A stretch of DNA of 55,531 nucleotides from Acidobacteriota bacterium (GTDB taxonomy: Bacteria; Acidobacteriota; Terriglobia; Acidiferrales; UBA7541): positions 1 through 55,531 of the forward strand of contig QHYZ01000079.1 of assembly GCA_003225295.1 (NCBI GenBank). Reading direction: 5' to 3'. Both the position numbers and the translations under genes were made by a program. Below, one piece after another: positions 1,889-25,129 of the stretch (positions are counted from its first letter, which is position 1; every line of letters starts with the position of its first letter). The notes under the pieces were generated by a model that was not told the DNA's origin, did not search any database, and was given only the letters and a program-made list of their open reading frames with translations.

Positions 1889-4307
1889 ATGCGAGTGAAA
1901 GCTATGGAAGCTTTGCTTCAGGATTTGCGCTACGCGTTTCGCATGCTGCGGAAGGCTCCCGCCTTCACGGCTGTAGCAGTGATGACCCTGGCGCTTGGAA
2001 TTGGGGCGAACACTGCGATCTTTACTGTTGTGAATGCCGTTCTGTTCCGTCCGCTGCCGCTGCGGCATCCTGGCCAGATAGTGCGGTTGCAGGAGTACCA
2101 TCAACACCCGGCGAACGTGACCGGAGCGACATTTCGCGATGTGCGCGAGCGCAATCGTGTGTTTACTCAAGTTGCGGCTTATCGCATTTTTTCCCAGAAC
2201 TTGAGCGACACGCGGCAAGCGGTGCCGCCGGAGCAGATCGACACGGCATTCGTTTCGCAGGATTTCCTACTGCTGCTTGGGGTAACGCCGTTCCTGGGGC
2301 CGGGATTCACCCAGGAACAGTTCCGCAAGAATGCCGAAAGCGTGGTGATCCTCAGTTACGGACTTTGGCGGCATCATTTCGGATCGGACCGCGAGACCGT
2401 CGGCAAGATGATTACCCTCCATGGGGAGCCTCACCGGGTTGTCGGTGTAATGCCGATGGGATTCTCCTTTCCGGAAACGGTCCAGGCGTGGGCGCCACTC
2501 ACCGAAGATATGGTCTTTCCGCAGAACCGACGTGCGCACCTATTCACGACGCTTGCGCGCGTCAAAGCCGGCGTTTCGAGGGAGGCTGTGCAGGCCGATT
2601 TGCAGGCGATTTCCCTCCAAGTTCAGCAAGAGAATCACGACGTCGATCCTGGATTCACATTCCGTGCGGAGCGCCTGCAGGATAATCTCGTCTCCAGTGT
2701 TCGCCCTATTCTGTTGATTCTGTTGGGTGCGGTTGCCTTCGTGCTCTTGATTGCATGCGCGAACGTGGCCAACCTTCTGCTTTCGCGGTCAGTGTCGCGC
2801 CAAAAGGAAATCGTGGTGCGTGCGGCTCTGGGGGCCACGCGGTTTCGGCTGGCACGGCAACTCTTGACCGAGAGCATGTTACTCGGGCTTCTCGGCGGAG
2901 CGACTGGATGCCTTCTAGGGCTGTGGTCGGTGAAGGTCATGTATGCCGCGTATCCTGGTGCCATCCTGGCTTGACGACTCCGGTGATCGACTTGCAAGTC
3001 CTGCTCTTCGTATTCGCCGTTTCATTGCTGGCATCGATTCTGTTCGGAAGCATTCCCGCCATGCAATCTTCGGAACTGAACTTACAGGTACAGCTTGTGG
3101 AGGGTGGCCGCAACACCGCCTCGGTACGCCGTCAGCGCTTTCGGTCATTCCTGGTAATCTCGGAAGTGGCGCTCGCCATGATGTTGCTCGCTGCCGCTGG
3201 CCTGCTTATCCGAAGCTTCATTCTGTTGCAGCGGGTTGATCCCGGTTTCGACACTTCGCATCTCGCCGTGGTTCGGCTGTCACTGCCAGACTCCCGGTAC
3301 CCTGAGCTCCGAGAGCGGACACAGTTTGTGAATTCCGCTCTGGAGCGCCTTCGGGCGCTGGCTGGAGTTCAGTCGGTTGCCGCCGCCGGAACGCTGCCGT
3401 TCGATCCGGTACCTGACACCGACCTGGAAGTCGAGGGTCACGTCTACGAGCCTGGGAACGAACCGGACGCGGAGATTCTAACTGTCAGCCCGGAATATTT
3501 CCGCACCATGGGAATCCGCCTGCTTGCCGGAAGAACGTTTACCCCGCGGGATATTCCGGAGAGTCCGACCGCTTTGGTGATTAATCAAACCATGGCACAA
3601 CGCTTCTGGCCCGGGGAAAATGCGCTGCGGAAACGCGTGGTAATGAAAGATTGGGGGCCACCACTGCCCGGTGAAATCGTGGGCGTAGTGTCGGATGTCA
3701 AGCAAGACTCCCTGGAGACGAGTACCCAGCCCGCAATTTACTACAGCTTCGCCCAGTTTTCTCAGAGCACGCTGACCACCTACGTCATCGTGCGATGCGC
3801 TTCGGATGCGCTCAGTCTTGCGGCGGCCATTCGGGATCAGATCTGGTCGGTTGATCGCGACCAACCCGTCAGTGTATTGCCCATGGACCAAATCGTCTCG
3901 GGATCGCTGGAGCGCCGCCGGTTCGTACTCATGTTGCTGGGCATGTTCGCCGCACTTGCACTGCTTCTGTCCGTGGTTGGCATTTACGGAGTCATTGCAT
4001 ATTCGGTGGGCCAGCGGACGCATGAATTTGGCATACGCATGGCTCTGGGCGCTCAACGGCATCAGCTTCTGCTGATGGTGCTGAGCCAAAGTGTCGGGAC
4101 CTCGCGGTCGGCCTAACCATCGGAGTCACGGGAGCCTTAACTGTGACTCGATTGATGGGAAGCTTGCTGTTTGGAATTGGCCCGGCTGATCCGCTGATCC
4201 TCTCGTTGATGGCGGCGATCTTGCTCGTGGTTGCCCTGATCGCCAGTTATGTCCCTGCGCGGCGGGCGGCCAAGGTTGATCCCATGGTGGCACTGCGGGA
4301 CGAGTAG
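1889..4307 (+). pseudogene. ADOP/MacB-type permease, broken by two frameshifts
   Basis: Three reading frames together make one ADOP permease. The first runs from ATG 1889 (or ATG 1904, [15 protein letters not shown], the more typical N-terminus) to a stop at 2974 and holds the first MacB-PCD domain and first FtsX helices. The second is picked up near 2975 ([20 protein letters not shown]) and runs to a stop at 4116 within the last FtsX block. The third continues from about 4100 ([12 protein letters not shown]) to the family-typical end VDPMVALRDE, stop 4305-4307. At both junctions a few residues expected in the family also seem to be missing, so these look like small deletions rather than single-base slips. 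There is no PadR-type N-terminal extension, unlike the gene at 5815. Probably inactive. Confidence 0.85.
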
Positions 4308-16851: not shown

Positions 16852-18519
16852 ATGCACGTCTTGGGTCAGAAAGGCGTTGTTTCACTCGTGTTGGTCGCAG
16901 GTTTTTACGGAAGTACAATTCCCGCTTTTGCGTCTACGGACGCTAACGGCAAGAGCGAGCCTCCGGCCAAGCGAGTGGCGGCGAAGGTAGATGCGCCCGC
17001 ACCATTGACCGAGCGCGAACGTTGGCTACTGGACCGTGTGGAGGAGCTCGAAAAGCGTGTTGCCGACCTCGAATCTAAGGGCAACGCCACGTCGTCCGCT
17101 ACGGAACCGTCTGTCGCGCTGCCATCTTCAGCGAAAGCAACGCCATCGGCTGTTGCAGCCAATGATCGCGTAGCAGCGGTCGGGCCGCAAGCCACTGAAA
17201 AGGACACATCGGGCGCTACCAAAGCCGAAAAGGCCGATCCCTTTGCGTTTGCCGATTTCACGTGGCTGGACGGCAACTCACGCACCAAAGATACGCCGTA
17301 CGCCACCAGTTTCTTCACGCCAGAGATCAGGGCCAACGTGGATTACAACTACAGTTTCAGTCACCCGAAGGATGACACGATAGGCGGCTCGAGCGAGGTC
17401 TTCCGGCACGGCGAAGTCCAAGTCACGCAGCTAGGCGTTGGCGGCGACATGCACTACGATAATGTACGCGCTCGATTGATGACGCAGTTTGGCCTCTATT
17501 CACAAACCACTCCACGGAATGACGCGAGTCCCGCACGGGGACAATGGAACCTCGACAATGCGTACCGGTATATTTCTGAGGGCTACGGCGGGTACCACTT
17601 CAACGCACTGCATGGGATCAACGTCGATGCGGGCATCTTCATGTCCTACATCGGGCTTTTCAGTTACTACCAATTCGACAATTGGGCGTATCAGCCCTCA
17701 TACGTCTCTTCCAATACGCCGTGGTTTTTCAACGGCGTGCGCGTGCAAATTTTCCCAACAGAGCATCTGAAGGTCGAGCCGTGGTTTATTAATGGCTGGC
17801 AGTCGTACGGCCGATTCAACGGTCGCCCGGGATTGGGTGTGCAGATCCTGTGGCGGCCGAACGGATGGCTGTCGGTGCTCGGGAATCAATACGCTCTAGG
17901 TGAAGAGGCCTTGGGCGTTCACGGCCGTGTCCGTTACCACAGCGATGACAGTATCGAAATCAAGTATTTCGATAAGCCGGGAAACAGTGGGCTGGACAAG
18001 ATGGCGTTTTCGTTGACCGGCGATATCGGTTGCGAACATGGCGGTGGCGTGAGCTGCTATACAGATTCCGCGAAGGGCCCGAAACAAGATTTTCTGGGCT
18101 TCATGTTCTACAACCGCTTCTGGTTTCACCATGACCGCTACGGCCTGACGCTGGGCGGCGGCAAAATCAACAATCCGGGACGCTATCTGGTGCTGCTGCC
18201 GCCGATCAATGGCGCGACGGCGGCCTCAGGTACGCCGTACTTCACCGAAAATCCGGGAGACCCGTTCAAGGCGTGGGACGCTTCCGGCACGTTTGACTAC
18301 ATGCCCAGCGAGTACATTACTTTTCGCGGCGAATTCAATCACCGCGCGGCCAATGTTCCGTACTTCTCGGGTCCGGGGGGAGTTACACCGACGTCCTGTC
18401 CCACTGCTCCCCTGGTCGAAAATATTTGCGGATCGCCAGGAGCATTGGTGCCCGGTTTTGCGCCGGATTTGAAGAAAATTGAGAACCGGATCAACCTCTC
18501 GATCCTCGTGAAATTTTGA
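16852..18519 (+). CDS. outer-membrane beta-barrel protein (porin-2/OmpL-like)
   Basis: 555 residues. A signal peptide (VVSLVLVAGFYGSTIPAFAS) is followed by a short coiled coil (ERERWLLDRVEELEKRVADL, residues about 55-80), a Ser/Ala-rich linker, and a large barrel rich in alternating aromatic strands. The segments FADFTWLDGNSR, FFTPEIRANVDYNY, NVDAGIFMSYIGLFSYYQFDN and FMFYNRFWFHHDRYGLTLGGG fit the BBP2 (putative beta-barrel porin-2) family. The C-terminal residue is Phe (LSILVKF), the classical outer-membrane sorting signal. GGAGAGAGGA precedes ATG 16852. It lies directly ahead of the kdp genes and may provide solute entry for potassium uptake; that is inference from position only. Compare the broken relative at 23622. 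Confidence 0.82.
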   Translation: MHVLGQKGVVSLVLVAGFYGSTIPAFASTDANGKSEPPAKRVAAKVDAPAPLTERERWLLDRVEELEKRVADLESKGNATSSATEPSVALPSSAKATPSAVAANDRVAAVGPQATEKDTSGATKAEKADPFAFADFTWLDGNSRTKDTPYATSFFTPEIRANVDYNYSFSHPKDDTIGGSSEVFRHGEVQVTQLGVGGDMHYDNVRARLMTQFGLYSQTTPRNDASPARGQWNLDNAYRYISEGYGGYHFNALHGINVDAGIFMSYIGLFSYYQFDNWAYQPSYVSSNTPWFFNGVRVQIFPTEHLKVEPWFINGWQSYGRFNGRPGLGVQILWRPNGWLSVLGNQYALGEEALGVHGRVRYHSDDSIEIKYFDKPGNSGLDKMAFSLTGDIGCEHGGGVSCYTDSAKGPKQDFLGFMFYNRFWFHHDRYGLTLGGGKINNPGRYLVLLPPINGATAASGTPYFTENPGDPFKAWDASGTFDYMPSEYITFRGEFNHRAANVPYFSGPGGVTPTSCPTAPLVENICGSPGALVPGFAPDLKKIENRINLSILVKF

Positions 18520-18622
18520 CGACTCGCGAGGGGCGAGATTTCTGCTGAACGCCGGCCGATGTGGAATCAAGAAAAGGCGGCCGATATTTGCCGCATGATT
18601 TGACCTGAGGAGACAAACAGGC

Positions 18623-18709
18623 ATGTTGGACATCATTTTTATAGCAGCGACCGTCGCTTTTTTCGCCCTGGGAATTGTCTACGTTCGCGGATGCGAACGC
18701 TTGAAATAG
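18623..18709 (+). CDS. 28-residue single-helix micropeptide upstream of kdpF
   Basis: A short frame, ATG 18623 to TAG 18709, encodes 28 residues: MLDIIFIAATVAFF, then ALGIVYVRGCERLK. It is one transmembrane helix with a short basic/cysteine tail. TGAGGAGA lies at 18605-18612, a good ribosome site though 10 bases from the ATG. It is followed after 10 bases by kdpF, so it belongs to the kdp transcript. I recall similar peptides ahead of kdp genes in other bacteria, but no established function. It is not KdpF itself, which follows and has the KdpF-type ending. A second small Kdp-complex subunit is a reasonable guess. Confidence 0.6.
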   Translation: MLDIIFIAATVAFFALGIVYVRGCERLK

Positions 18710-18719
18710 GAGCGAGGCT

Positions 18720-18809
18720 ATGCACGCAAGTGATGCGGCACTGTTGGTGATTTGCGCGCTTCTTTTGGGGTATTTGCTCTATGCCCTCTTGAAGGCGGAG
18801 GAGTTCTGA
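18720..18809 (+). CDS. kdpF: KdpF, small stabilising subunit of K+ transporting ATPase
   Basis: A 29-residue peptide starting MHASDAALLVICALL and ending YALLKAEEF. The single transmembrane helix and the Y-(A)-LL-x-(P/A)E-x-F ending are the KdpF signature. Stop at 18807-18809, two bases before the kdpA ATG. GGAGCGAGGCT ahead of the start contains GGAG at 18709-18712. In the known complex KdpF is a lipid-like stabiliser of KdpA. Confidence 0.88.
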   Translation: MHASDAALLVICALLLGYLLYALLKAEEF

Positions 18810-18811
18810 GC

Positions 18812-20584
18812 ATGACCGCAAATGGCTGGTTTCAAATTGGATTGTATCTGTTTGTAATCGCCCTGGTGACGAAACCCATGGGCGCGTTCATGACGCGAGT
18901 GTTCAACCGCGACAAGACATTTCTCGATCCGATCTTACGTCCGATCGAGCAACTCGTCTATCGCCTCACGGGCGTCGATGAAAGGCGCGAGATGCGTTGG
19001 ACAGAATACGCCATCGCCATGCTTCTGTTCAGCGGTGTTTCCATGGCGCTTCTCTACATAATCGAGCGCACACAGAGATGGCTGCCGTTCAATCCACAGA
19101 AATTCGCCAACGTTGAGCCGGCCCTGGCCTTTGGAACCGCGGCCTCATTCACAACAAATACTAACTGGCAGGCCTATAGCGGCGAATCCACCATGAGCTA
19201 TCTCACGCAGATGGCGGGTCTGGCCTATCACAATTTCGCGTCCGCCGCTGTCGGTATCGTTCTCGCCATTGTGGTTATCCGTGGCATCGCACGCAAAGAA
19301 ACGGACAAGCTCGGAAACTTCTGGGTCGACACCACGCGTTGTCTCCTTTGGGTTCTGCTGCCGGTTTGCGTGTTAGGTTCCTTGGTCCTCGTGTCCCAAG
19401 GTGTCGTGCAGAATTTGAAGCCCTATACGACGGTGGAGCTGATTCAGCCGTACGCGGCGCAGGTCGCGGGTGCAGACGGCAAGAGCAGTGCGCAAACCGT
19501 GACTCAGCAGGTGATCGCGCAAGGACCGGTTGCCTCGCAGGAGGTAATCAAGGAATTCGGTACCAACGGGGGTGGATTTTTCAATGCTAACAGCGCGCAT
19601 CCTTTTGAAAATCCTACTCCATTCTCGAACTTTTTTGAAATGGTGCTGATTTTTGCGATTCCATCGGGACTGACCTATACGCTCGGCCGCATGACCGGCT
19701 CGCAGCGCCACGGCTGGGCGGTCTGGGCGGCCATGGCTTTCTTGTTCTTAGCCGGTGTGACCACCGCGTATTGGGCGGAAGCAAAGGGCAACCCGCTCTT
19801 GGCCGGCACGGACCAGCACGCCGGTGCGTCGCAATCCGGCGGAAACATGGAGGGCAAGGAAGTGCGGTTGGGCATCGCGAATTCAGCTTTGTTTACCACC
19901 GTCACGACTGATGCCAGCTGTGGCGCCGTAAACAGCATGCACGATTCGTATACGCCGCTTGGCGGCATGGTGCCGCTGGTCAACATCATGCTCGGCGAGG
20001 TTGTGTTTGGGGGAGTCGGCGCTGGGCTGTACGGAATTTTCGTGTTCGTGGTCCTCGCCGTGTTCATTGCAGGACTAATGGTGGGGCGCACGCCAGAATA
20101 TCTCGGCAAGAAGATTGAATCGTATGACGTCAAAATGGCTATGCTCGCGGTTCTCATTTTAACCTTCACGATCCTTACCTTTTCAGCGATTTCTGTTGTT
20201 AAGCCTTATGGGACTTCTAGCATCTCCAACCCTGGCCCACACGGCTTATCCCAAATCCTGTACGCCTACGTTTCGTCGACTGGTAACAATGGCTCGGCAT
20301 TTGGAGGTCTTATCCCGAATACGATGTGGTACAACACGACCACCGCTGTGGCCCAACTGTTGGGCCGGTTCTTCATGATCATTCCGGTGCTCGCCATAGC
20401 CGGAAGTCTAGCGAAAAAGAAGACTGTTCCCAAATCGGCCGGCACCTTCCCTGTCACCGGAGGTCTCTTCGCCGGTTTGCTGGTCTCCACGATAGTAATC
20501 GTTGGCGCTCTTACATTTTTCCCGGCTCTGAGTCTCGGGCCGATTCTCGAGCACCTATTAATGAACGCAGGAAAGGCTTTCTGA
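18812..20584 (+). CDS. kdpA: KdpA, potassium-binding channel subunit of K+ ATPase
   Basis: 590 residues from ATG 18812, two bases after the kdpF stop; the frame is open further upstream but would overlap kdpF. Ten hydrophobic helices and all four selectivity-filter loops are seen: [46 protein letters not shown] with TPLGG, and [11 protein letters not shown]. This is the superfamily-of-K+-transporters subunit that binds and conducts K+ in the high-affinity pump. The gene is followed by kdpB after about 7 bases. Intact and of normal length. Confidence 0.97.
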
Positions 20585-20591
20585 GGTGTCC

Positions 20592-22649
20592 ATGGACCCA
20601 GTTGCTCAAATTGGTCAAATCAGAAAAAAATCGCTCGCCGATAGCGCCATTCTGTCGCGGGCCGTTGTGGACTCCTTTCGCAAGTTGAAACCACGGGCGA
20701 TGGTCAAGAACCCGGTGATGTTCGTTGTCGAGGTCGGTGCGGTTCTCACCACGATTCAACTTGGTTGGAACGTCTTTCGCCATGCCGGACAGTTTGGGTT
20801 TGGACTGCAAATCACGCTTTGGCTATGGTTCACGGTGCTCTTTGCCAATTTTGCGGAAGCTATGGCCGAAGGCCGCGGTAAGGCGCAGGCTGACACGTTG
20901 CGCAAAGCACGCGCGGAAACGCAAGCCCATCGCTTGCGTAGCGATGGCCATACAGAATGCGTGCCCAGTTCGAAGCTTCGCTCCGGAGACATCGTCGTTG
21001 TCACCGCTGGGGATTTCATCCCCGGAGATGGAGAGGTCATCGAAGGCGTGGCGTCAGTAGACGAATCGGCGATCACGGGCGAGTCCGCCCCGGTAATCAG
21101 GGAATCCGGCGGAGACCGCTCGGCGGTCACCGGTGGAACACGAGTTCTCTCCGACGAGATCAAAGTGTGCATCACCTCGAATCCCGGCGAGACCTTTCTT
21201 GACCGCATGATCAAGCTCGTCGAGGGCGCCTCGCGGCAGAAGACGCCCAACGAGATTGCGCTGAATATTCTCCTGGCAGGTTTGACGATCATATTTTTGC
21301 TGGCGGTCGTGACGCTTCAGCCGTTCGCGATTTATTCAGGCGCTCCGCAGAACATTTTCGTGTTGGCCTCCCTCCTCGTGTGTCTCATCCCTACAACCAT
21401 TGGCGGATTGCTCTCCGCGATCGGCATCGCTGGGATGGACCGCTTGATTCAGCGAAACGTCATCGCGATGTCCGGGCGTGCTGTCGAGGCCTCCGGGGAC
21501 GTCGATGTGCTGCTGCTCGACAAAACGGGAACGATCACGCTGGGCAACCGAGCGGCAACCCAATTCTTTCCTGCACCGGGCGTTGAAGAGGCTTATCTCG
21601 CCGATGCTGCGCAACTTTCCTCCCTGGCCGACGAGACTCCCGAAGGTCGGTCGATCGTGGTGCTGGCAAAGGAGCGCTACCACCTCCGCGGACGCGATCT
21701 TTCGACTCACGCGGCCAATTTCATCCCATTCTCCGCACAAACGAGAATGTCCGGCGTGGACCTCGACGGTCGAGAAATCCGTAAAGGCGCTTTAGAGGCT
21801 ATCAGCCGCTTGACCAGCAATCGCGGCAATGGCATTCCCTCCGAGTTGCGGGTGTGTGTCCGAGAAATTTCGAATGCGGGTGGAACACCGCTGCTGGTTG
21901 CAGAGAGCGGCCGAGTACTGGGCGCGATAGCCCTTACAGACATTGTGAAGGGGGGCATGAAGGAACGCTTCGATCATCTGCGCGCTATGGGGATTCGCAC
22001 GATGATGATCACGGGCGACAACGCGCTTACCGCGGCTGCGATCGCCCGCCAAGCGGGAGTCGACGATTTCCTCGCGGAAGCTACACCGGAAGACAAGATG
22101 GCGCTCATCAAGAGAGAACAGGCCAAGGGAAAACTCGTGGCTATGACTGGCGACGGCACAAATGACGCCCCCGCGCTTGCTCAGGCGGATGTCGGAGTGG
22201 CCATGAACACCGGAACGCAAGCCGCGAAAGAAGCCGGAAACATGGTCGACCTCGATTCCAACCCCACCAAGCTGATCGAAATCGTGGAAATCGGTAAGCA
22301 ACTCCTGATTACTCGTGGTGCGTTGACTACGTTTTCCGTCGCCAATGATGTGGCCAAGTATTTCGCGATCATTCCCGCGATGTTTGCCGGAGCATTTCCT
22401 GTATTAAGTGTCCTGAACGTAATGCATCTTCGCACGCCGGAGTCTGCCATTCTTTCCGCCGTGATCTTTAACGCGCTGATCATCATCGCCTTGATCCCAC
22501 TCGCTCTCCGCGGCGTTCGCTATCGCCCGGCGGGCGCCGCCGCTCTGCTACAGCGCAACCTGTTGATCTATGGCGTTGGCGGAATAATTGCGCCGTTTAT
22601 CGGAATCAAGTTTATCGACGTACTGCTGACCTATCTCCGGGTTGTTTGA
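20592..22649 (+). CDS. kdpB: KdpB, P-type ATPase subunit of K+ transporter
   Basis: 685 residues. A GTG at 20586 is in frame, but ATG 20592 is preferred because TGAGG (20582-20586) is then well spaced. P-type ATPase motifs in order: [13 protein letters not shown] (actuator TGES), the phosphorylation motif [10 protein letters not shown] with Asp 310, KGALEA in the nucleotide domain, and the hinge [20 protein letters not shown]. Membrane helices lie at about 35-85, 215-275 and at the C-terminus ([20 protein letters not shown]). It hydrolyses ATP to drive K+ passing from KdpA. The stop overlaps the kdpC ribosome site. Confidence 0.97.
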
Positions 22650-22656
22650 GGACGCC

Positions 22657-23226
22657 ATGAAAAGGAATCTTCTGATCGCGCTGTGGTTCACTCTGGTTAC
22701 GACGGTGATGTTCGGAGTGGTGTATCCCCTGGCAATTACAGGTCTGGCTCAGGTGTTGTTTCCCAGCCAAGCCAACGGACAATTGATCAAAAAAAATGGC
22801 AAGATTGTTGGCTCGCGGATTATCGGCCAATCTTTCACGGAACCGGGTTATTTCCATTCGCGGCCGTCCAGCGCCGGAACCGGGTACGATCCTACTTCCA
22901 GTAGCGGCTCCAATCTCGGCCCCACAAACAAGCTTCTGATCGAACGAGTAAGGAGTGATGTTCAAAAGCTACAGGCAGAGAATCCCAATGTCCCAATCCC
23001 GGTTGACTTAGTGACTGCCTCGGGATCTGGCCTGGACCCGGATATCTCCCCGGCCGCCGCGGAATTCCAGATTCCTCGTGTTGCTCATTCGCGTGGCATG
23101 AAAGAAGACGAGGTTCGCATCGTTGTGCGGAAACACACAAAGGATCGCGACCTGGAATTTCTAGGTGAACCGCGTGTCCATGTTTTGGAACTGAATCTGG
23201 AGCTCGACACCCTTCATCCGTTGTGA
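22657..23226 (+). CDS. kdpC: KdpC, subunit of K+ transporting ATPase
   Basis: 189 residues from ATG 22657 (TGAGGA at 22646-22651). One N-terminal membrane helix (LIALWFTLVTTVMFGVVYPLAITGL) is followed by the periplasmic KdpC domain with GSRIIGQSFTEPGYFHSRPS, the SSGSNLGPTNKLL block, the DLVTASGSGLDPDISPAAAEFQ motif and RVHVLELNLELD. This subunit assembles with KdpA and KdpB. It is the last intact gene of the operon; the KdpD sensor that often follows is absent. Confidence 0.96.
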   Translation: MKRNLLIALWFTLVTTVMFGVVYPLAITGLAQVLFPSQANGQLIKKNGKIVGSRIIGQSFTEPGYFHSRPSSAGTGYDPTSSSGSNLGPTNKLLIERVRSDVQKLQAENPNVPIPVDLVTASGSGLDPDISPAAAEFQIPRVAHSRGMKEDEVRIVVRKHTKDRDLEFLGEPRVHVLELNLELDTLHPL

Positions 23227-23620
23227 TGAGACTTCACAATTTGCGGCGTGACCATTTTTCGGAGTCCATCCCGAGGGTTCTCCGTTTCCTCGCCGCGGTC
23301 CGGGCCCCACACGGTTTGCCGCGACCTCTTATGTTATGGGTAAGCGGCTTCCCTTGCTGAATGACGAGAGTGCGCAGGACGTCGAAATCCTTCGGGGTCA
23401 GACGGACTCTCTGACCGCGAACCTCCACGATCCTTCTCTCGAGATCGATACTCAATTCCGGAGTTTCGACCTTCGGGAGCGGCTCCGCCGACGCTCGGAC
23501 CGGCGAAGAGTGGACACGCGTCTTGGTACTAAGAGACGCTTTCTTCTGCTGCTGGGTGCTTTCAGAGCGGATGCGAACTCGTCCAACAACACGTCGGTCA
23601 AATCGAAGGGAGAGTAATGC
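23226..23620 (-). pseudogene. kdpE: relic of KdpE-type response regulator (winged-helix part), antisense to kdp
   Basis: On the minus strand the frame reads VETPELSIDLERRIVEVRGQ then RVRLTPKDFDVLRTLVIQQG and KPLTHN, which is the OmpR/PhoB-type DNA-binding domain with the KdpE-like LTPKxxDxLRxLVxxxGKPLTH. After a frameshift near 23335 the match continues as HKRSRQTVWGPDRGEETENP and then RDGLRKM, matching the KdpE ...LLxxVWGPxYGEETxxLRxxxxxLRKK stretch. The receiver domain and the C-terminal end are missing. It lies tail-to-tail with kdpC, so it is a remnant of a differently arranged kdpDE. Not functional. Confidence 0.75.
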
Positions 23621-23621
23621 G

Positions 23622-25129
23622 ATGCGTTCCTTTAACAAACCTTCCGAACAGTCCGATCGCCGTCGCACTTGGCGCTGGTGGAGTGTGGGATGTTGCGTCG
23701 CACTGATAGTGGGCGGGTCCAGACTCGTTTTTGCCCAGCAAGTAGGACTTTCGGAGAATGGCGCTCAAACCGGCCATGACCTTCAGCGCAGGGTGGCACA
23801 ACTCGAAGCGGAAGTAACTGAGCTAAAAAAATTGATCCAAGAGAGGAACTCCTCAACCCCACATCAACCGGAAACACCTCCTTCCGCTGGTTGCGTCCCC
23901 GCGAGCGCGATTCCCTCGACAATGGCGCTTTCCTCGACGGAGGGTCACCAGCAAGAATCAGGTGCTCCGCCAAGTGCGTCCCGCGGCGGAGAAGATGGAA
24001 AGACGCTGGACTTCCTGCGCAACACGACCATCAACCTAGGCATGGACGGCTACTACGCCTATCTTGAGCAACAACTTCAGCCTGAATCAGGCAAGTATTT
24101 CGTTTCGGTGGCCGCTTGGACCTGCAATTCGGCCAAGCGACGGATACCTTGCAAGGGAATCCAGCAAACGAACCTCGGCCTCAGATTTACCGAAACATTT
24201 TCCAGGCGTACGGTACTTACATTGCTCCAGTAGGGAATGGCTTGACCTTGGATTTTGGAAAATGGAGCAGTTCTTTGGGACTCGAAAACAACTACACGAA
24301 AGATCAAATGAATTATTCCCGTTCGTATTATTTCGATTTTCTACCTTTCTATCACACAGGCATCCGCGCGAATTACCAGGTCAACGATCGGCTAGCGCTG
24401 AACTACTGGTTGGTGAATGGCGCGAATCAAGCCGAAGCAACGAATGGTTTTAAAGATGAGCTTTTCGGATTCGTTGTCAAACCCAGGACCTCAATCACAT
24501 GGACTTTCAACTACTATTTGGGGCAAGAACATCCTGACCGAATCGTCGTCAGTCCCGTCAATCCGATTCCTGTGCAGCCGGGCCTGAGTTTTCAAGCTAT
24601 TCGTCCCGCGCCGGACGGGCGCTTGCACATTTTTGACAGTTATGTGATATGGCAGCTTTCACCGAAGTGGAGAATGGCTGTTGAAGGCGACTACGTCATT
24701 GAGCGCTTGTCGAGAAATGAAGCCCTGGCGCGGTCATCAGCGACCTCTCATGTCGCTGGCGGTGCTGTTTATGCACGCTATCAGCTCACACAGAAACTTG
24801 GCGTAGCCGCGCGGGCCGAGTATCTCTCGGATCGTGGTGGCCTTTTCAGTGGCCTAACCCAAGCTCTGAAGGAGACCACGGCCACATTGGACTACAAGCT
24901 AGACGATGGTTTCTTGATGCGTTATGAATGGCGCCGGGACTTTTCGAATCAACGAAGGACTAACCCGGTGCCGGAGCCGGTGATGCGCCGTCCCTACTCC
25001 GCCAGCGAAGCCGCCGCTTCCCGCAAGCCCAGCTTCCTGACGGATTCGCAGGGCGTATTGAGCAAACAGCAGAATACTGCAAGCGTTGGGCTGGTATGGT
25101 GGTGGGGACGGAAGGAAGGAACATGGTAA
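23622..25129 (+). pseudogene. second outer-membrane barrel gene (porin-2 type), broken
   Basis: ATG 23622 with AAGGGAGAG upstream starts a signal peptide (WSVGCCVALIVGGSRLVFAQQ), a coiled coil (LQRRVAQLEAEVTELKKLIQ) and the barrel entry FLRNTTINLGMDGYYAY. The continuation is split over three frames between 24060 and 24120: SNNFSLNQASI in one, LDLQFGQATDTLQGNPANEP in another. About 40 expected residues appear to be missing there, so this is deletion plus frameshift rather than a base-call error. The remainder to 25129 is a normal barrel (GLTLDFGKWSSSLGLENNYT, FLPFYHTGIRANYQVN), ending VGLVWWWGRKEGTW. It differs in detail from the barrel at 16852, so it is not a recent copy. Confidence 0.78.

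Follow-up and report, generated by a model that had tools for sequence, protein, structure and literature searches.

Comparison of sequences across bacterial Kdp operons indicates that a 28-codon open reading frame (ORF) lying immediately ahead of kdpF is a real, conserved and widespread gene of the kdp operon. What is new here is a family of small single-helix proteins encoded in Kdp operons, for which an accessory role is likely.

A 28-residue membrane peptide is encoded ahead of kdpF

The window, by which we mean the whole analysed stretch of 55,531 nucleotides from an Acidobacteriota bacterium, harbours the peptide gene on its forward strand at 18623..18709, stop codon TAG included, where it encodes MLDIIFIAATVAFFALGIVYVRGCERLK (28 codons plus TAG). 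The gene was delineated from the ORF list, by homologue and profile searches and by a selection test. The window translation agrees with the original prediction of a 28-residue ORF ending in YVRGCERLK, and the ribosome site proposed for it corresponds to a Shine-Dalgarno-like AGGAG at 18608..18612, read in the sequence 10 nt before the ATG. The next gene, kdpF (18720..18809, forward strand, 29 aa), starts 10 nt 3′ of the peptide gene. As had been proposed, this second peptide is KdpF: it scores above the cut-offs of both Pfam (PF09604, 24.2 bits, cut-off 21.2) and NCBIfam (TIGR02115, 29.6 bits, cut-off 26.85). A further AGGAG, read at 18708..18712 and located 7 nt before kdpF, overlaps the stop codon of the peptide gene, a layout that would be suited to coupled translation. 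On the same strand follow kdpA (18812..20584; PF03814, E 2.2e-240, and TIGR00680), kdpB (20586..22649; TIGR01497, 1074 bits) and kdpC (22657..23226; PF02669, E 4e-75, and TIGR00681). No sigma-70-like promoter was found between 18300 and 18900 of the window.

The kdp operon is flanked on both sides by BBP2/OmpL-like porin genes. The beta-barrel porin gene 5′ of the peptide gene occupies 16852-18519 of the forward strand (PF07642). The 3′ porin gene spans 23523-25129, although its match is confined to the frame 24116-25129 and the gene may be split. Stretches resembling the upstream porin were present in 19 of the 78 loci scanned, that of the window included, with some of these loci sharing one genome.

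The reading frame is conserved and under protein-level selection

A match to the peptide at E≤1 was obtained in 35 of the 61 genomes searched, including the window's own. Within the genus of the window's genome, 27 of the 35 further genomes gave such a match. Thirty loci were returned and read, namely that of the window's genome and those of 29 relatives, and all of them carry the same ORF ahead of kdpF/kdpA. The pattern of the KdpA N-terminus was found 3′ of the peptide in 29 of these 30 loci and the pattern of the KdpF end in 28, and no locus lacked both; a looser KdpF pattern was found in 29.

Among the 30 peptide genes (435 pairs), the pN/pS ratio of the ORF was 0.43 (nonsynonymous 0.283, synonymous 0.658, uncorrected), and the same measure gave 0.32 for kdpF (29 genes). 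When the same DNA was read in the other two frames, the ratios were 1.25 and 1.56. In addition, differences peaked at the third codon position (0.35, 0.24 and 0.56 for the three positions), and D3, F13, Y20 and C24 were invariant in an alignment of 23 peptide sequences. The low in-frame ratio compared to the other frames, together with the third-position peak, demonstrates that the ORF is under purifying selection at the protein level. In-frame purifying selection and a conserved position 5′ of kdpF/kdpA, the two marks by which we recognise a small membrane protein of the kdp operon, were both found.

Distribution within Acidobacteriota

A profile built from the first homologues gave 67 matches at E≤0.1 in 66 of the 297 genomes of the phylum, and in 61 of these cases kdpA follows on the same strand at a distance of 116-456 nt. 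For the 42 kdpA genomes that were then without a match, a wider profile was used, which added seven with an adjacent peptide. In total, an adjacent peptide was found in 68 of the 104 Acidobacteriota genomes with kdpA above the cut-off, and no adjacent match was found in the remaining 36. Among these 36 are all 22 kdpA-bearing genomes of one family (f33). In a genome of this family an 82-aa ORF with hydrophobic stretches occupies the place of the peptide (locus L219, 1330-1578), and its end overlaps the kdpF start.

Of the six matches that are not adjacent, one stands beside a kdpF without kdpABC (L211), another is at the end of a contig (G287) and the other four are weak (E 0.03-0.08); the idea of orphan copies in Acidobacteriota was dropped. 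A match in genome G185 (E 4.2e-6), about 1.9 kb before a kdpA that was found in two pieces, was left out of the adjacent count. Copies relocated elsewhere in kdp genomes without an adjacent peptide were likewise ruled out: 19 genomes were searched, and among the 17 of them that lack an adjacent match the best hit had an E-value of 0.072 and lay inside a 291-aa frame.

In L211 (G322:C2:655300-661300), a porin gene, the peptide gene and kdpF lie together at 2908-3194 on the reverse strand with no kdpABC beside them, and another very small hydrophobic ORF comes next; a kdpA with its own peptide gene and kdpF sits elsewhere in this genome. A more distant extra KdpA copy was seen in several genomes (G314:C7, G322:C1, G543:C7, G547:C16 and G359:C4), and in G314 the peptide gene and kdpF precede the first KdpA copy only.

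Distribution beyond Acidobacteriota

At least 116 KdpA loci were collected from named records with a DNA pattern for a KdpA motif, a search that is blind to the peptide. A profile made from Acidobacteriota only (A1) was run over the 23,478 ORFs of the 116 KdpA loci listed. At E≤1 it gave 42 matches, 31 of them outside Acidobacteriota and all just 5′ of kdpA; at E≤10, 53 of 59 matches fell within the interval just 5′ of kdpA. A second profile (A2) of 53 sequences was partly seeded from the loci that were later counted, and we therefore regard the A1-only searches and the Mycobacterium loci, and not the A2 counts, as the clean tests.

With A2, the peptide was found in 83 of the 103 listed loci that lie far enough from a record edge. 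Assigned by record titles, these comprise, among the loci listed, Alphaproteobacteria (21/22), Betaproteobacteria (7/9), other Gammaproteobacteria (2/3), an unplaced proteobacterium (1/1), Myxococcus and other deltaproteobacterial records (4/4), Actinomycetota (18/20), Acidobacteriota (11/11), Bacillota (4/5), Chloroflexota (2/3), Bacteroidota and allies (8/12), Planctomycetota (2/2), Nitrospirota (2/2) and Lentisphaerota (1/1). The single Dormibacterota locus (0/1), the five Pseudomonas loci and the two Enterobacterales loci listed gave no peptide. The 20 listed loci without a match at the threshold include two in which a likely peptide can be recognised by eye (L121 and L184) and one, L105, that was counted as missing although its kdpF sits at the margin of the available sequence and the upstream region is unreadable. 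Neither the likely peptides of L121 and L184 nor one located farther upstream in L117 were added to the 83.

In Mycobacterium, the genus of Mycobacterium sp. Root135, KdpA was found in 32 of 41 genomes, and all 30 kdp loci returned from these contain the peptide (weakest E 0.0049); one of the 30 comes from a seed genome. In the phylum of Caldanaerobacter, 5 of 14 kdp loci had a match. Furthermore, 9 of 16 plasmid-borne kdp loci had a match at E≤1. Eight of these are seeds, including Deinococcus radiodurans and Rhizobium acidisoli, and the ninth is a non-seed locus of Sinorhizobium meliloti (L231, E 5.5e-5). The plasmid loci of Ideonella, Tsukamurella, Lactiplantibacillus, Picosynechococcus, Halobacterium and E. 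coli gave no match at E≤3, and no peptide was matched ahead of kdpF in the E. coli locus (L236); the best match in the Listeria innocua plasmid locus reached just E 2.5. A tblastn search of plasmids with the window peptide itself gave no match.

The original prediction, that a distinct peptide is conserved ahead of kdpF/kdpA, thus held in further genomes from many phyla. A frame that is not conserved among related kdp loci had been named as speaking against it; this is clearly contradicted by the 30 loci read, the wider profiles, the Mycobacterium loci and the selection measures.

Gene layout suggests translation together with kdpF

The layout was measured in the 82 of the 116 listed loci in which both starts could be placed automatically. 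Among these, the peptide stop and the kdpF start share exactly 4 nt in 31 loci, while a gap of 0-10 nt was found in 29, one of 11-25 nt in 16 and a larger one in three. The spacing was otherwise negative in the last three, one of which (L112) has a swapped gene order with the peptide gene between kdpF and kdpA. A Shine-Dalgarno-like motif precedes 59 of these 82 homologues compared to 214 of 1640 control ATGs. The arrangement suggests that the peptide is probably translated just before kdpF, with coupling to kdpF. In L117 the peptide gene is located 538 nt before kdpF, and in L217 an extra small hydrophobic ORF of about 35 aa lies between the two genes.

A putative accessory partner of the KdpFABC pump

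We consider it fairly probable that the peptide, as a genuine and probably translationally coupled kdp gene product, acts as an accessory micro-subunit that tunes or stabilises KdpFABC. Its membership of the pump, either as a subunit or as a regulator, appears likely from its operon position, the selection at the protein level and its distribution. Because the peptide is conserved across the Kdp operons of many groups, while the loci examined in E. coli and Pseudomonas gave no sign of it, it is probably an overlooked Kdp partner. In the mechanism that we propose, the peptide gene would be translated just before kdpF, and the product would insert into the inner membrane as one helix. This helix could pack against the membrane part of KdpFABC and thereby stabilise or tune the pump, as KdpF, CydX and AcrZ do for their partners. 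Several observations count against a pump subunit: the E. coli Kdp pump is not known to need any such peptide, matches are missing from 20 of the 103 listed loci, adjacent matches are missing from 36 of the 104 Acidobacteriota genomes, and in L211 the peptide gene is paired with a kdpF that has no kdpABC beside it.

A bolder form of this proposal, which we put forward tentatively and hold to be rather less probable, is that the ancestral Kdp pump had five subunits. The peptide would then be a second micro-subunit beside KdpF that attaches to one side of the pump's membrane domain and governs how active the pump is, comparable to the sarcolipin-type peptides of animal P-type pumps, and that was lost in the E. 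coli and Pseudomonas lineages. Such a loss in the E. coli lineage would explain why it is missing from structural and biochemical work on the E. coli pump.

The peptide is a single hydrophobic helix that carries, in most groups, an acidic residue close to its N-terminus; its C-terminus reads [DE][RK][LI], often with a preceding Cys. According to the positive-inside rule, the basic end of a membrane helix is cytoplasmic, and for that reason the C-terminus is predicted to be in the cytoplasm. The peptide thus probably resides in the inner membrane with its N-terminus (acidic MxD) outside and its basic C-terminus inside. In 59 Acidobacteriota sequences the conserved positions lie on one face of the helix (p 0.006 for the helical moment, with a best angle of 102 degrees), which speaks for the accessory role. 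Against it, the 26 Mycobacterium sequences showed this signal weakly (p 0.049, angle 94), the full set of 176 sequences was borderline (p 0.052, best angle 180) and the 85 diverse sequences lacked the signal (p 0.26, best angle 180); these p values are uncorrected across the four groups tried.

It is also conceivable that the ORF is a cis-acting leader whose translation opens or regulates the translation or transcription of kdpF, the peptide itself being inert. The 4-nt overlap or short gap with kdpF is common, the AGGAG of kdpF overlaps the peptide stop in the window, and a terminator-like hairpin with a T run lies inside the window's peptide gene (18646-18658), all of which would fit such a leader. 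However, the amino acids are conserved across phyla, beyond what the mere act of translation would demand. RNA structure was not in excess, either in the window (z 0.60) or over 40 of the 198 loci (mean z 0.01, with 2 of the 40 below −2), and the hairpin occurs in just 23 of the 198 homologous genes and is therefore probably incidental. Rfam gave no match at E≤0.5. Neither a conserved RNA structure nor a conserved terminator was thus found, and the readings as an RNA leader, an attenuator or an Rfam element were dropped. Moreover, the gene is kept when it lies 3′ of kdpF (L112) or 538 nt 5′ of it (L117). A protein partner fits better than a leader, since a conserved helix is made together with KdpF and the pump and is kept when its gene has moved. 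We consequently judge a leader to be unlikely and prefer the view that the peptide is a regulator or an accessory subunit of KdpFABC.

The target of regulation might instead be a membrane partner other than the pump, such as the sensor kinase KdpD. That small kdp peptides can have such partners is illustrated by the mycobacterial KdpF, which bound KdpD and MmpL7 in two-hybrid tests according to a passage of PMC3618439. However, the peptide gene travels with kdpF/kdpA, and we regard this alternative as improbable.

Relation to KdpF and other families

KdpF (PF09604/TIGR02115) resembles the peptide: it too is a single helix, of about 29 aa, its gene precedes kdpA in the same operon, and an acidic residue and a basic one usually stand at its C-terminal end. 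A diverged second copy of KdpF with the same lipid-like stabilising task would account for the common size, the single helix and the acidic-basic-hydrophobic C-terminus seen in the alignments (ERL versus ERF). However, KdpF mostly ends in Y-L-x-x-x-L-x-x-P-E-[RK]-F, whereas the peptide ends in [DE]-[RK]-[LI], often after Cys. The two genes stand side by side. Their profiles share no detectable similarity: hhalign gave a probability of 3.8% with one aligned column, a comparison of low power at 27 columns. The window peptide had no match to the KdpF models of Pfam and NCBIfam at E≤10. Among the 53 family members, a hit to a KdpF model was obtained for one (NF011326, E 0.0086), and Pfam KdpF gave no hit at E≤0.1. 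The peptide thus neither passes the PF09604/TIGR02115 cut-offs nor shows profile-profile similarity, the latter at the low power mentioned, and on the profile-profile comparison we dropped the paralogue reading as very improbable.

At most two of the 53 members are matched by any one family of Pfam or NCBIfam (best E 0.0039). BcsF (PF11120) is matched by at most two of them (best E 0.013) and was rejected for the window peptide (13.3 bits against a cut-off of 23, and 12.2 against 56). A profile search of the PDB gave nothing related, the sole sequence match being an unrelated enzyme (E 1.5). As far as these profile searches reach, the family is undescribed by Pfam, NCBIfam or the PDB, and a relation to KdpF is not detectable.

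Finally, although the ORF is very short and such ORFs are frequent in the six-frame list of the window, a chance ORF has practically no probability left, being refuted by the conservation and the held-out profile searches and opposed as well by the selection, the Shine-Dalgarno enrichment and the 30 of 30 Mycobacterium loci.

Comparison with known systems

KdpFABC is a textbook K+ pump that has been studied mostly in E. coli, whose examined locus gave no peptide. If the pump has a further small protein in many other bacteria, work on how it is regulated in species other than E. coli has so far lacked one component.

A counterpart may exist in Clostridium acetobutylicum, where orfZ and orfY are reported to be small ORFs for putative hydrophobic peptides. 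A passage of PMC5401905 cites the transcript kdpZYABCXDE of this species, with two genes before kdpA; like the peptide gene, kdpZ (orfZ) is the first of the two, in one transcript under K+ limitation. By operon position, kdpZ may be the same gene, and if OrfZ is homologous, the gene was already seen in one species in 1997. In the open-licence literature searched, no report of a wider conservation of kdpZ or of the peptide as a widespread family was found, just KdpF and the kdpZYABCXDE citation. The original description of the peptide as unrecognised therefore holds in part: the family is undescribed by Pfam and NCBIfam and the gene is unlisted in some records, but the kdpZYABCXDE transcript (as cited in that passage of PMC5401905) and two annotated homologues precede it. 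These homologues are named 'hypothetical protein' in Azospirillum and 'potassium ABC transporter ATPase' in Mycetohabitans (WP_338861741.1; L063, 708-812), the latter name being misleading. In the Rhizobium, Acetobacter and Deinococcus records that contain the peptide the gene is not listed, the plasmid gene tables being incomplete.

The peptide could also explain stretches that have been called 5′ untranslated regions of kdpF in Mycobacterium smegmatis and Caulobacter. The M. smegmatis transcript under K+ limitation starts 120 nt before the kdpF start, which a passage of PMC5401905 calls a long 5′ UTR. In Mycobacterium sp. Root135 (L103) the peptide starts 77 nt before kdpF, and the gene would thus fit inside such a transcript. 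A passage of PMC8552747 proposes that kdpF of Caulobacter is preceded by a structured 5′ UTR some 100 nt long; in a relative of Caulobacter (L140) the peptide starts 85 nt before kdpF, where that 5′ UTR lies.

In other publications it is KdpF that is named. According to a passage of PMC3618439, the operons of E. coli and M. tuberculosis begin with kdpF. KdpF also serves as an example for the Pro-SMP finder (PMC10903887) and is the sole concern of the relevant passages of two structure papers (PMC12629597 and PMC6255902). In the D. radiodurans peptide paper (PMC9650054) 'kdp' occurs once, in a list naming KdpF. Two passages of the D. radiodurans kdp paper (PMC5716572) contain no such ORF, an M. 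tuberculosis paper (PMC6375644) gave one passage, on a reporter construct, and 'kdp' is absent from the main text of the S. meliloti small-proteome paper (PMC10117765).

Among small membrane proteins, CydX, AcrZ and similar proteins share with the peptide a short single helix, a place beside a large membrane partner that is only proposed in the case of the peptide, and a size that gene callers easily miss. Their partners are unrelated to the Kdp pump, and the likeness is one of general description. Sarcolipin, phospholamban and FXYD proteins are single-helix regulators of P-type ATPases. As such they offer, by analogy only, a parallel to the role suggested here for the peptide, that of a single-helix regulator of a P-type pump.
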